Of a stretch of 33,557 bases of DNA, positions 252 through 7,139 are shown piece after piece; the stretch's first letter is position 1, and each line of letters opens with the position of its first letter. The notes beneath the pieces were generated by a model. That model was not told where the DNA came from, did not search any database, and worked only from the letters and a program-made list of their open reading frames with translations. The position numbers were made by a program, and so were the translations under genes. The stretch covers positions 5,589-39,145 of the forward strand of contig JAJPXR010000220.1 of NCBI GenBank assembly GCA_021205375.1, given 5' to 3'. This stretch comes from Clostridiales bacterium. Lineage in GTDB: Bacteria; Bacillota; Clostridia; Oscillospirales; Oscillospiraceae.

Positions 252-3200
252 ATGCCTGCCCCCACCGGCTGCCCCTTCTGCCATTCGAGCAATATTGGGA
301 TTGGCTCTGAAAAAGGCCACTGCTTCTCCTGTAACCAAGATTTCCCCCTAACCGAACAGGAAACCGAAAAGGCAACGAACCCCCTGCGGCTGTTTCTCAG
401 TTACGGCCACACGGAGCACCCCATCTGCCGGATGGTCGCCGCCGCGCTGACCCAGCGGGGCCACGACGTCTGGTTCGACAAGGACAAGCTCCACGAGGGG
501 CAGAACTGGCGAAAAGAGATTGCCGAGGGGCTGGAGAAAAGCAACGGCGTGGTGGCCTGTATCTCCGACCACTACGTGCGGCCTCGCAGTGTCTGCCTGG
601 ACGAGCTGAACATCGCCATCGGCGTGACCCGGGGCGAACACGTCCTCACCGTTCTGCTGGGGGACGAGAGCATCGTTCCCGCCTCCCTCTGCTACAACCA
701 GTGGCTGGATATGCATGACTGGGAGGACCGGATGAAGGGCGACCCAGCGGCGTTCGAGCAGTGGTTCCAGGCCAATATGCGCAAGCTGTTCGCCGCTTTG
801 GAGACGGAGGACAACCGAACCTTTTCCGGGGCCATCCAGACGTTACAGGAAAAGCTACAGGTCTCCCCCAACACCAGCCGTCAGAGCAGTCTGCTGAAAA
901 AGCCCTTCGTGGGGCGGCAATGGCTGACGAATCAGGTGGTGGCGTGGCTGGACGACCCGAAGGGCGAACGCCTCTGTTTCCTCAGCGGGGACCCCGGCGT
1001 GGGCAAGAGCGCCTTCGCCGCCAACTTCACCCACTATAACCCCCGGGTGGCGGCGGCGCTGTTCTGCTGGGCCGGAGAGAACCGATTCAACGACCCCCGC
1101 GCCGTCCTAAAAATGCTGGCGTTCCTGCTGGCCTGCCGCATCCCGGACTACCGTCGCCGTCTGCTGGCACGGCTGGACGGGGAGGACCGGCTGGGCGAGT
1201 ACAACGAGCGGGAGCTGTTTCGCGTTCTGCTGGAGGAGCCGATGCACGGCTTGATCGACGGCGAGCGGGAAACCCTCTGCATCGTCATCGACGGGCTGGA
1301 CGAGGCCGGCACCGCCGAGGAAAACTTGCTGGCGGAGACGCTGGGACGCTATATGCCCCTGCTTCCCCCGTGGCTCCGGGTGCTGGTGACGGGCCGCCCG
1401 GTGGCGGCGGTGACGCAGTCCCTGGGCAGCGGCAGGCAGATGCCGCTGGATGGCCGGAGCCAGGAAAACCTGGCGGATGTGCGACAATACTTCGAGGAGA
1501 CCCTGCGGGACCGCTGCGCCGAAACCCCGAATTGGCAGGCGTCGCTGGATGAGCTGACCCGCCGTTCCCACGGCATCTTCCTCTATGCCGAGCTGGTGTG
1601 TCAGGGCATTTTGGCGGGGAAACTGGCCCTGACCGACTGGGACAAGTTCCCGGACGGCTTGCAGGACGCCTTCACCCGCTGGTTTCAGTGGTTTTTCCCG
1701 GACAAGCGGGCGTTTGAGGCCCAGTTCGCGCTGCCCCTGGGGGCGCTCTGCGCGGTGGCGGAGCCGCTGCCCCTGGAGGAGCTGCGCCGGGTCTTTGGCT
1801 GGAACGAGAGCCAGCTCCACCGGTTCCTCCGCCGCATCGACGTGCTGCTGAACCACGGCGAGAGCGTCTTTGGCAAGGAGACGGTCACTCTGTCCCACAA
1901 ATACATTGGCGAGTGGCTGACTGACCCCCATCTCAACAGCCTGTACTTCGTCTCTGTCAACGACGCGAAGGAGGCCATGGCCGGGGCGTTCTATGACCGG
2001 TTCCAAAAAGACCCGAAGGAGCTGACCGAGTTTGAGTCCCTGCACCTGTGTGAGCTGCTATTGGATTGCGGCAAAGCTGCGGAGTGGTTTGAGGCTGTGT
2101 TCAGCGGCAATCTTTGCTGGAACATCATTAACGCCGGGGACTACTGCCAGGAGTGGGGCCACTTGGACGAGGCCATGAAGTGTTATCGTTGCGCCCTGTC
2201 CGTCACGGAGCAGGGAAAGCGCATCTTTGAAAGTTTGGAGATGTTGCGGAATTACAGCGCGTGTGCCGAACGCATTGGCGAATTGGAACGAACGGCAGGC
2301 AACCGTGGAGCGGCTCTTGACTGGTACAAGAAATCTCTGGATATCCGGGAGCGGCTGGCGGAGACCTGTGACACACCGCTGTACCAGATGGATCTGAACG
2401 TCAGCTATGAGAAACTGGGCAATTTGGCGCGAGAGGACGGGGACTGGCTGACGGCCCGGGAGTGGTACGAAAAAGGACTGGACATTACGGAGCAGCTGGC
2501 GAAATCCCGAGGCATACCGGAGGACTGGCGGGATCTGAGCGTCAGCTATGAAAATATGGGCAACCTGGCGCAGGAGGAAGGCGAACGGCAGGCGGCCAGG
2601 AACTGGTAGGAGAAATACAATTATAAACATCTGAGGCTGGTGAAGGACCGGGGTACACCGCAGGACCAGCAGGATTTGAACTTCATCTATAACAAGCTGG
2701 CATATCTGGCATGGGATGACAAAGACTGGAAGGCAGCCCGGGACTGCTACGAGAAAGCTTTGGACATTGCGGAACAGATGGCAACGACCCGCAATGTCCC
2801 GAGCGACTGGGGAGATCTGTGCATCAGCTATAACAGCCTTGGCAACCTGGCGCGGGAGGAAGGGGATCGGCAGACGGCGTGGAACTGGTGTGAGAAAGCC
2901 CTGGAAATTGCAGAACGGCTGGTAAATACCAGGAAATCGATCGAGGATTACGACTATTTGGCAATCACGCTCCTTAGCCTGGCACATATCTCCGCATCAG
3001 AGCAGGAGTGTAAACGCCTGGCGCAGCGCGGCCTCGCTATTTCAGATAAACTGTATAAGCAAACTGGGCTGCCAAAGTTCCAGAAATATTTTGATGATTT
3101 CAACAAAATATACGGTCGTGCTGAAAGCGGCGCCTATGACCAGAAGGGCGATGCAGCGTTGGAACGCGGAGATTGGCAGGCGGCGCAGGGCTGGTACGAG

Positions 3201-4352
3201 AAAGCCCTGGAGGTTCGGAAACAACAGGAAAAGGCTTGCAGTACATCAGAGAATCAACGGAACCTGCGCGTTAGCTATTTTAAACTGGGCATAGTATCAC
3301 AAGAGGCCAGAGACGTGCAGACAGCGCAATTCTGGTATGAAAAATCGCTGGACAATGCGGAGCGGCTGGCGGAAAACAGTGGTACGTATGAAGATTATCA
3401 TGATTTGATTGTCAGCCTCTGGGGACTGTCAGGTGTGTGTTCCCCTGAACAGGAGCAGGTGCGTATGGCGCAGCGTGCCCTTTCCATTGCAGAAACACTG
3501 TATAAACAAAACGGAGAACCCAGGTATCAGTCGCTGGCTGAAAAGGCCCACGAGATGTTGGATGCCCTTTTAAACAGCGTTCACGCAGTGAGCGTCAACT
3601 ATGACCAACAGGGCGATTCGGCGCTGGAACGCGGAGACCGGCAGACGGCCCGGGAGTGGTACGAGAAAGCCATAGGAATCTGGGAGCAGCTGGCAGAAAT
3701 GCGTGGCACGCCGGAGGATTGGCAGAACCTGATCGTCGGCTATCACAAACTGGGCGATCTGGTGAAGAAGGACGGCGCCCTACAGGCGGCCCGGGGCTGG
3801 TACGAGAAATCCGTGGACGTCCAAACGCGGCTGGCGGAGACCCAGGGCGACTTAGACGACTGGTGGAACCTGAGCGTCAGCGATGAGAAGCTGGGCGACC
3901 TGGCACTGGAGGATGAAAACTGGCAGACAGCCCAGGACTGGCACAGGAAAGCCCTGGCAATTCGGGAACAACTGGTGAAAGCCCGGGGTGCGCTGGAGGA
4001 CTGGCGGGGCCTGAGCATCAGCTATGAGCGGCTGGGACATTTGGCGTGGGAGAACGGAGACCGGAATGGGTGCCGGGAGTGGCACGAAAAATCACTGCCC
4101 ATTGTTGAACAACTGGCAAAGTCCAGTGGTACTATTAAAGCATACGACAATTTGACAGCTACGCTTTACATACTTGCCATTGCCTCTGACGCACAGCAGG
4201 AGCGACGGAACTATGCGCAGCGCGGCTGCTCCATTGCAGAAACCCTGTACAAGCAAACTGGGGACCCCAGGTATCAGTCGTTTATGGATGGGTTCCACAA
4301 GATACTGAAACCCAAGCGCCGTGGATTCTTTGGCAGCTTTTTCACTCTTTGA
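252..4352 (+). CDS. Zn-ribbon / TIR / NACHT-type STAND NTPase / TPR-like repeat protein, one reading frame interrupted by an in-frame TAG at 2607-2609 (possible pseudogene or readthrough)
   Basis: ORFs 252-2609 and 2640-4352 are in the same frame with no stop other than TAG between them. N-terminal CPFC...CFSC knuckles; TIR-like FLSYGHTE...DVWFDKDKL...VCLDELNIA; Walker A GDPGVGKSAFA; NACHT-like Walker B LCIVIDGLDEA; C-terminal repeats with WYEKAL...LGNLAxEEGD. Confidence 0.85.
2278..4352 (+). repeat. Helical (TPR-like) coding repeat array with an exact 141-bp (47-codon) period in three super-modules
   Basis: The codon after the conserved Trp falls at 2325, 2466, 2607, 2748, 2889 / 3195, 3336 / 3660, 3801, 3942, 4083; spacing within each block is exactly 141 nt. 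Blocks close with a cap motif AQRxxxSIxxxLYKQxGxPxxQ at about 3021, 3468 and 4215. Confidence 0.9.
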
Positions 4353-4440: not shown

Positions 4441-5010
4441 TCACCCTTCTCCCTCCGGCCCACAGAGCCGGTAGTTTTCCTCAAACTGGGGGCGGGCCAC
4501 AAAGTTGAAGCTGATGTCCGTAATTTGCCCCGCCGCGTCCCGCTGGGTCGTATACAACACCAGTGTGGCATCCCGGGCCGCGCTGAGGGGCGCGCCCCAC
4601 AGGTGGGCGTTGAAGTACCGCGCCGGGTCATTGGGGTTCAGCACCAGCCGTCCCGTCTCCAGCAAAAATTGCACTTCGGGGCAAAGCTCCTCGTCCGCCT
4701 GCCAGATGGCCACCGGGCGGCTGCGCTGTTGGTAGTCGTCCCCGGCGATGTGGCGGTGGTTCGCCAGGAAAAACGCCCGGTCGTTGGGGTAGGGGTAGTG
4801 GCGGCCCTCCACCGTGTCCACCTTGAAGTAGTCGCCGGGGTGGGCCAGCTCCCCCGCGCCGGAGGCCGCCTCCTGGCTAAACAGCTCATAGAGGCCGTCG
4901 GGCCGCAGACGAATGGCCCCCTCCCGGAGCAGGTTCTGCTCCATGGCGCTGTGTTCGCCCAGACAGTAGGCTTTTACAGTTTTGTCCGTCTTTTTGATTG
5001 CGTATCTCAT
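4441..5010 (-). CDS. Hypothetical protein of 189 aa, likely co-transcribed with the RyR/TrkA-N protein
   Basis: Complete ORF with GGAGT RBS upstream of ATG; 53-nt gap from the upstream minus-strand ORF; motif PGDYFKVDTVEGRHYPYPNDRAFFLANHRHI; no family recognised. Confidence 0.8.
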   Translation of the reverse strand: MRYAIKKTDKTVKAYCLGEHSAMEQNLLREGAIRLRPDGLYELFSQEAASGAGELAHPGDYFKVDTVEGRHYPYPNDRAFFLANHRHIAGDDYQQRSRPVAIWQADEELCPEVQFLLETGRLVLNPNDPARYFNAHLWGAPLSAARDATLVLYTTQRDAAGQITDISFNFVARPQFEENYRLCGPEGEG

Positions 5011-5063: not shown

Positions 5064-6938
5064 TCAGGACGTCACAATGCGAGTATCCTTTCCTTTGTCA
5101 TCCTCGCCCAGTTCGTCGTAGTGGACCAGGAGGGGATGTACCTTCGCCAGGTCGTCTCTCGGCTCACCGAAAACGTATCCCTCCGAGCGCATATAGACAT
5201 TCCACCGCTTGTGTTCCAACTCCGCCAGGTGTTGTTTTTCCTCCGGCGACATCTCTTTTTCCGTTTTGCCCGCCCCCGGTATGCCGCGGGTGATCCGCGC
5301 TTTTTCGTGGATCGCGCTGGCGATGGAGGAGCGGTAATTGTATTCGTAATTCCGGAACGTCTCTTCCAGCTTCTTCTTTTCTAACGCCGCTAGTTCCGCT
5401 TTTTTTCGCTTCTCTTCTTCTGACTCCATTTCTTCCGAGGGCCCTTCTTCCGAATCCGACTGCTTCCCATACCTGAAATGGATATTGAGGGCCTTCTCCC
5501 GCAACTCGGAGTTGAGGACGGTGTTCTCGCTCCAGGCGGAGTCCAAATCGCCGATGAAGTCGATTTCGTACGCTTGCCCCTGGAAGTTTTTCAGCCCGTG
5601 CAGGGCGTTCTTTTTTTCGCCGCTCTGGACAATGGCCTTGATTTTGGGGGTGTTGTGGCTGCGCGCAAACAACATGCGCAGATAGGCAGCGGTCTCGATG
5701 TTTTTGGCGTCGTCCCCCAGGGCGACGAACACCCAGGTCGTGTCGCTTAGCTGGCTGATCGCGTCGGCAAACGCCTGTGAGCCGACGGCAACTCCCGGAT
5801 GGATGGTGATGCGGTACTCCGCCTCCCCCGGACGGAAAACGCCGTTGTATTGGTCGGACAGCAGTTCCGGACACTGGACCCGCAGCGTTTCCTCTGCCAG
5901 CGGGTCCTGGTCAAAGGCGGTGATTTGCAGGTGATAGCCGTCCATCTGGCAGAACCAGCTCAGGGCTTTGAGCAGATTGCTTCCGCACCGGCCCAGGCCA
6001 ACCAGCACCACCGAAATCAGCTTGCCGTTCTCTGTCTCCCTGGCGGTGGTGAAAAGCTCGTCCCCGCTGTCGTAGAGAAACCGGTCGATGAGGGAGCGGT
6101 CCGGGTCTATCCTGCGGACCTCCACGGTTCCCTTCTCGGCGGAGGAGAGCAGGAGTTCCCCCTCCAGATTCGTGGACTGTACATATAAGTGTGTATTTTC
6201 CCGTTTTTTGTACCGATTGAGCAGCGACAGCGCCTGTGTGGTGTTTTTGCCCTCGTCCTCGCTCAGGAGGAAAAAGTACAGCGCCTTCTTTTTGCTGTGG
6301 AACTCGTACGCTATGGCGCAAATATCCCGCTTCAGCAAAATCATTTTGTTCCGGCGGGCCTCCTCCGCCAAGGCGAGGTTTTCTTCTGGCCCCTGGTCAG
6401 AAACGCCTGTAAAGACCACCACTCTTTTTTCGTTCTTGTTGAGGAGGTCTTTCGCCAGCGTCAGCGACCTTGGGTTCAGCTCAGAGAAAACATACAGCTT
6501 CCGGTTGCGTCCGGCCAGCAAATGGAGCATGGCGAAAATATTTTGAAACAGGGAGAGGACTAAGCTAAAGGTCAGGAGCGGTGCAGCCACAAACAGGATG
6601 GCGATATAGACCGTGTATGCGTTATAAAGGAACCCGCATGTACGGGGGACCTGCTCCGTCAGGAAGGTATAATCCCCGTTTAAGAAGAACAGACAGAGGG
6701 TGTGGTAAATCGACAGGAAAATCGACTTGAAGATGCACAGCGGCTCCGCAGAGAGCGCTTCCCAGTAGACGGGGAAAAGCAGGACGGACGCAGAGCAAAA
6801 TACGGTTGCAATCAGGATATAAAGCGGGGTGAGCAGTTTTGTCATCGCGTTTTTCTGTTTCGAACGCCTGAACGCGCTCACCAGACCGACGACCAAAAGG
6901 ACGGCCGATATGGAAAAACATACTTGGAACCGGAACAT
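5064..6938 (-). CDS. Membrane protein with tandem TrkA-N/RCK-like Rossmann regions and a C-terminal RyR domain
   Basis: Several N-terminal hydrophobic helices; first region RKLYVFSELNPRSLTLAKDLL; second ISVVLVGLGRCGSNLLKAL (GxGxxG); C-terminal LAELEHKRWNVYMRSEGYVFGEPRDD, a RyR-domain-like signature. Start placed at ATG 6938 with AAAGGGGACAG RBS rather than the 6980 start. Confidence 0.75.
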   Translation of the reverse strand: MFRFQVCFSISAVLLVVGLVSAFRRSKQKNAMTKLLTPLYILIATVFCSASVLLFPVYWEALSAEPLCIFKSIFLSIYHTLCLFFLNGDYTFLTEQVPRTCGFLYNAYTVYIAILFVAAPLLTFSLVLSLFQNIFAMLHLLAGRNRKLYVFSELNPRSLTLAKDLLNKNEKRVVVFTGVSDQGPEENLALAEEARRNKMILLKRDICAIAYEFHSKKKALYFFLLSEDEGKNTTQALSLLNRYKKRENTHLYVQSTNLEGELLLSSAEKGTVEVRRIDPDRSLIDRFLYDSGDELFTTARETENGKLISVVLVGLGRCGSNLLKALSWFCQMDGYHLQITAFDQDPLAEETLRVQCPELLSDQYNGVFRPGEAEYRITIHPGVAVGSQAFADAISQLSDTTWVFVALGDDAKNIETAAYLRMLFARSHNTPKIKAIVQSGEKKNALHGLKNFQGQAYEIDFIGDLDSAWSENTVLNSELREKALNIHFRYGKQSDSEEGPSEEMESEEEKRKKAELAALEKKKLEETFRNYEYNYRSSIASAIHEKARITRGIPGAGKTEKEMSPEEKQHLAELEHKRWNVYMRSEGYVFGEPRDDLAKVHPLLVHYDELGEDDKGKDTRIVTS

Positions 6939-7139
6939 TTCTCTGTCCCCTTTCGCACCCATTTTTTGCGCCCGGAGCAATGGCGCTCATGCAGGATTTG
7001 CCGCTTCGATTTATTCTACCACATTTGCCTGCCGATTGCACCGCTTATTTCTGTTCGACAGCACATTTGATTACAGCGTGCCGTACCGGCATCGGCAACA
7101 ACAGCGTGTCAAATCGTTATCTGTCGCGCAAAAACAGGG

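Follow-up and report, generated by a model that had tools for sequence, protein, structure and literature searches.

A probable recent nonsense lesion in the sensor repeats of a TIR-NACHT-TPR gene from a Clostridiales genome

The window analyzed here, a 33,557-bp stretch of scaffold C6 in the draft genome G000, carries near its left end a plus-strand gene whose single translated frame (252-4352) comprises 1366 codons and a terminal stop at 4350, and is broken internally only once, by a TAG at 2607-2609. A candidate sigma-70-like promoter is located upstream on the same strand (184-211, with TATAAT at 206-211); it matches the consensus at 10 of 12 positions, although chance alone would yield ~1.2 sites of this quality in the region scanned, and the leader is conserved in the sister species G014. 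The 785-codon 5' part (252-2606, plus strand) encodes a zinc-ribbon-like N-terminus (CPFC..CFSC, read by eye), a TIR domain, a NACHT/NPHP3_N NTPase, and the first tetratricopeptide repeats (TPRs), with Pfam matches to TIR_2 (8.1e-20), TIR (2.9e-7), NPHP3_N (5.4e-20), AAA_16 (5.5e-12) and TPR_12. The NACHT model itself matches just under its cut-off (4.4e-5), whereas NPHP3_N and AAA_16 exceed theirs, and Walker A (GDPGVGKS) and Walker B (IVIDGLDE) motifs can be read in the NTPase. Beyond the stop the same frame continues for 580 codons (2610-4352, plus strand) through a TPR array. The truncated 785-residue product would contain the zinc ribbon, TIR, NACHT and three to four TPRs, and would lack the rest of the C-terminal repeat sensor.

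The TAG is exactly in phase with the TPR units, whose motif recurs every 141 bp (2325, 2466, 2607, 2748 and 2889), and stands at a residue encoded in the other units by TAC, TAT, TGT or CAC, and which is mostly Tyr, with Cys once and His twice. The 580 open codons that follow have a chance probability of ~3e-12 at the local base composition (none of 2000 shuffles remained open over this length), there is no second stop or frameshift downstream, and TPR models of Pfam match on both sides of the TAG. This improbably long open run, together with the TPRs in both halves, shows that we are dealing with one interrupted gene. The earlier note had read the open reading frames at 252-2609 and 2640-4352 as one frame, had placed the stop at a conserved Tyr in the 141-bp register, and had identified a TIR-STAND protein that keeps TIR and NACHT and loses its repeats; all of this is borne out. 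The GTG at 2640 is merely the first start-like codon after the stop, and its use as a gene start is unsupported.

Three cap-like modules (YDxLAxxLxxLA...LYKQTGxPRYQ) are present in the array at 2890-4350, compared with one in the related species G003, and the sensor seems to have grown through duplication of blocks of TPRs together with a cap. The 3' flank is occupied by two minus-strand genes, both common to G003 and G014. The first (4441-5010) encodes a 189-residue protein that adjoins the TIR-NACHT-TPR gene in those species too (dN/dS ~0.12-0.15) and has no family match in Pfam or NCBIfam; the second (5064-6980) encodes a 638-residue protein with weak, below-cut-off matches to TrkA_N and RyR. 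Both are possible partners of the TIR-NACHT-TPR gene.

Within the genus set of 32 genomes, which includes G000, the gene is carried by two other species, G003 and G014. The G003 ortholog (MSHH01000043.1) is 76% identical over the first 785 residues and has an uninterrupted frame of 1143 residues, with Tyr (TAT) at residue 786, the equivalent of the stop. The G014 ortholog is 86% identical, but its array is interrupted by an assembly gap between two contig ends, so that the position of the stop is unreadable; both parts of the gene that are present are open. More distant homologues with TPR arrays likewise have long open frames (G321, 1151 residues; L073, 1039 residues; L074, 1021 residues), and searches of viral contigs with both halves of the gene found no relatives. 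Comparison with close homologues, as the earlier note had proposed, therefore shows the stop to be private to G000 among those relatives that are readable at this point.

The stop is not the only unusual feature of its repeat unit. The TAG-GAG-AAA is followed at 2616-2636 by TAC AAT TAT AAA CAT CTG AGG (Y-N-Y-K-H-L-R), at a place where the other units have mostly A/S-L-x-I-x-E-Q/R. The ~20 bp directly after the stop (TACAATTATAAACATC) are aberrant, AT-rich and private to G000, and the 22 nt following the TAG have a GC content of 23%, among the lowest 0.8% of 22-mers in the frame. The 141-bp register runs through unshifted. This patch (2610-2636, plus strand, EKYNYKHLR) is found nowhere else in the window with 3 mismatches allowed or in the 32 genus genomes at up to 3 mismatches, and the first 20 kb of the scaffold contain matches to it of 9-10 bp only. 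The suggestion in the earlier note that a single C-to-G change explains the stop is thus incomplete, as the adjoining patch matches no repeat unit or relative and the state of the unit goes beyond what one base change would produce.

One conceivable source of both stop and patch is mutagenesis of the sensor by a diversity-generating retroelement (DGR). DGRs are known to target STAND sensors (PMC10907252), and NAY-type codons abound in the patch, but the genome, in an assembly that is 95% complete, yielded neither a reverse transcriptase (PF00078) nor a template repeat matching 2601-2650 when C, G and T were allowed to derive from A. At this level of completeness the evidence for absence is strong but not absolute, and we consider the DGR reading to be extremely improbable and largely refuted.

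A more serious alternative is that the frame is intact in the true genome, with both the stop and the odd patch arising from a local error of the consensus within the repeat array of a draft assembly. An N-gap (C6:5579-5588) ends just before window base 1 and is followed by ~110 bp of C-rich junk (1-111), with a 22-bp word (CCTCACGGCTGAACCATGAATG) flanking the gap and junk on both sides (to C6:5700); the G014 sequence is uninterrupted at the homologous place and lacks the poly-C junk. The gap and the poly-C artefact indicate poor assembly support within 2.5 kb upstream of the stop. The G014 assembly likewise broke inside the TPR array, the stop coincides with an unrelated-looking patch of 20 bp, and there is but one lesion in 1366 codons, all of which would fit an error. 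Against this, the rest of the frame is clean, the register is kept across the patch, and the TPR units are too divergent for a simple confusion of repeats. Comparison of G000 with G014 over 56,451 codons also revealed few candidate stops, which by position mostly do not resemble broken genes. We regard an error as a real contender that is nonetheless rather unlikely.

The same comparison, which set 63 G000 stretches (675 kb) against 928 kb of G014 and aligned 148 coding stretches, bears on whether the TAG might be decoded. A short TIR-NACHT product, or a mixture of it with rare full-length protein, could in principle be made on purpose through suppression or downstream reinitiation. In favor of this, the frame downstream of the TAG is without further lesions. 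There is also a second private in-frame TAG on scaffold C6, in a PTS EIIB-like gene. TAG terminates 13 of the 134 G000 genes shared with G014, however, and thus serves this genome as an ordinary stop, and it is not enriched among the internal stops in the compared frames (7 TGA, 4 TAA, 2 TAG). Most internal stops lie near frame starts or in antisense frames, the antisense assignment being certain for the two on locus L033 and a matter of judgement for the others. The TAG in the PTS EIIB-like gene (L033:2937-2939, minus strand, outside the window) replaces a serine codon of G014 and cuts off the last 14 residues.

Reinitiation and readthrough driven by RNA structure are unsupported as well. The relatives of the gene are fused and uninterrupted, the RNA following the stop is no more stably folded than shuffled sequences (z 0.14), the GGAG overlapping the stop has no start codon at a good distance, and the GTG at 2640 has just a GAGG 3 nt upstream. 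The earlier note had also proposed looking for an amber suppressor tRNA, and none with a CUA anticodon is present among the 29 tRNA genes found, an incomplete set in which tRNA-Tyr is missing too and which on its own is weak evidence. The best match to PylS scores 25.4 bits against a cut-off of 178.15, and matches below the cut-off occur in most control genomes as well. A deliberate split or readthrough of the gene is improbable. More improbable again is a regulated break, in which most of the population would produce TIR-NACHT protein lacking the sensor, the full receptor being restored by rare events of readthrough or reversion; if true, this would be a way of keeping a costly immune receptor mostly off. 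Among the four options listed in the earlier note, inactivating mutation and sequencing or assembly error stand, and readthrough by a suppressor or by recoding finds no support.

Substitution patterns offer some indication of the age of the lesion. In comparison with G003, the TIR-NACHT region has a dN/dS ratio of 0.23-0.30 and the C-terminal cap one of ~0.26, which shows both the upstream and C-terminal parts to be under purifying selection. Assigning the G000 lineage half of its synonymous distance from G014 (0.24) and assuming a transition bias of 2, we would expect the 580 downstream codons to have acquired ~10.5 additional stops if unconstrained over the whole G000 branch, and there are none. 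This leaves a young lesion, an error, or a 3' part that continues to be translated. A clean downstream frame is equally expected from an error or from translation continuing past the stop. The patch, which a point mutation does not explain, counts against a plain nonsense lesion.

Weighing these observations, we consider it likeliest, with a probability of roughly 0.6, that a chromosomal gene of the TIR-NACHT-TPR type (STAND, NLR-like) has recently acquired a nonsense lesion private to this genome. Known STAND proteins sense the trigger through their C-terminal repeats, oligomerize through the NTPase and act through the N-terminal domain (PMC10907252). By analogy with these families, the TPR array of the intact relatives would be the sensor, NACHT the oligomerizing switch and TIR the effector. 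In G000 translation would end after three to four TPRs, with most of the sensor gone; the likeliest consequence would be a loss of sensing and hence a null allele. In this strain the gene has probably lost its function, although constitutive activity of the truncated product is possible in principle and would be selected against. So read, the locus is a clean example of the loss of an NLR-like defense gene, in which one lesion takes away the sensor but spares the effector, and it holds no pointer to a new decoding or immune mechanism. It is also a caution for the annotation of draft genomes, where a gene of this kind may be recorded as two proteins.

PADLOC models gave no match to the NACHT region or to the whole protein, and literature searches returned nothing on stop codons in TIR-STAND sensors. 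The gene resembles the antiviral STAND proteins of the Avs/bNACHT type in having an N-terminal effector, a central STAND NTPase and a C-terminal repeat sensor, and differs from them in placing a TIR effector behind a zinc-ribbon-like N-terminus and in having most of its sensor cut off by the stop. The G003 ortholog corresponds in domains, start, unit register and the two neighboring genes, but has its open 1143-residue frame, a single C-terminal cap and Tyr in place of the stop. A verrucomicrobial TIR-STAND protein with WD40 repeats (L077) likewise carries a TAG in frame within its C-terminal repeats, at codon 930 after 8001, in a conserved repeat position and with 380 open codons beyond. With its WD40 sensor it is a distant relative (37%), and the two TAGs are presumably independent lesions.
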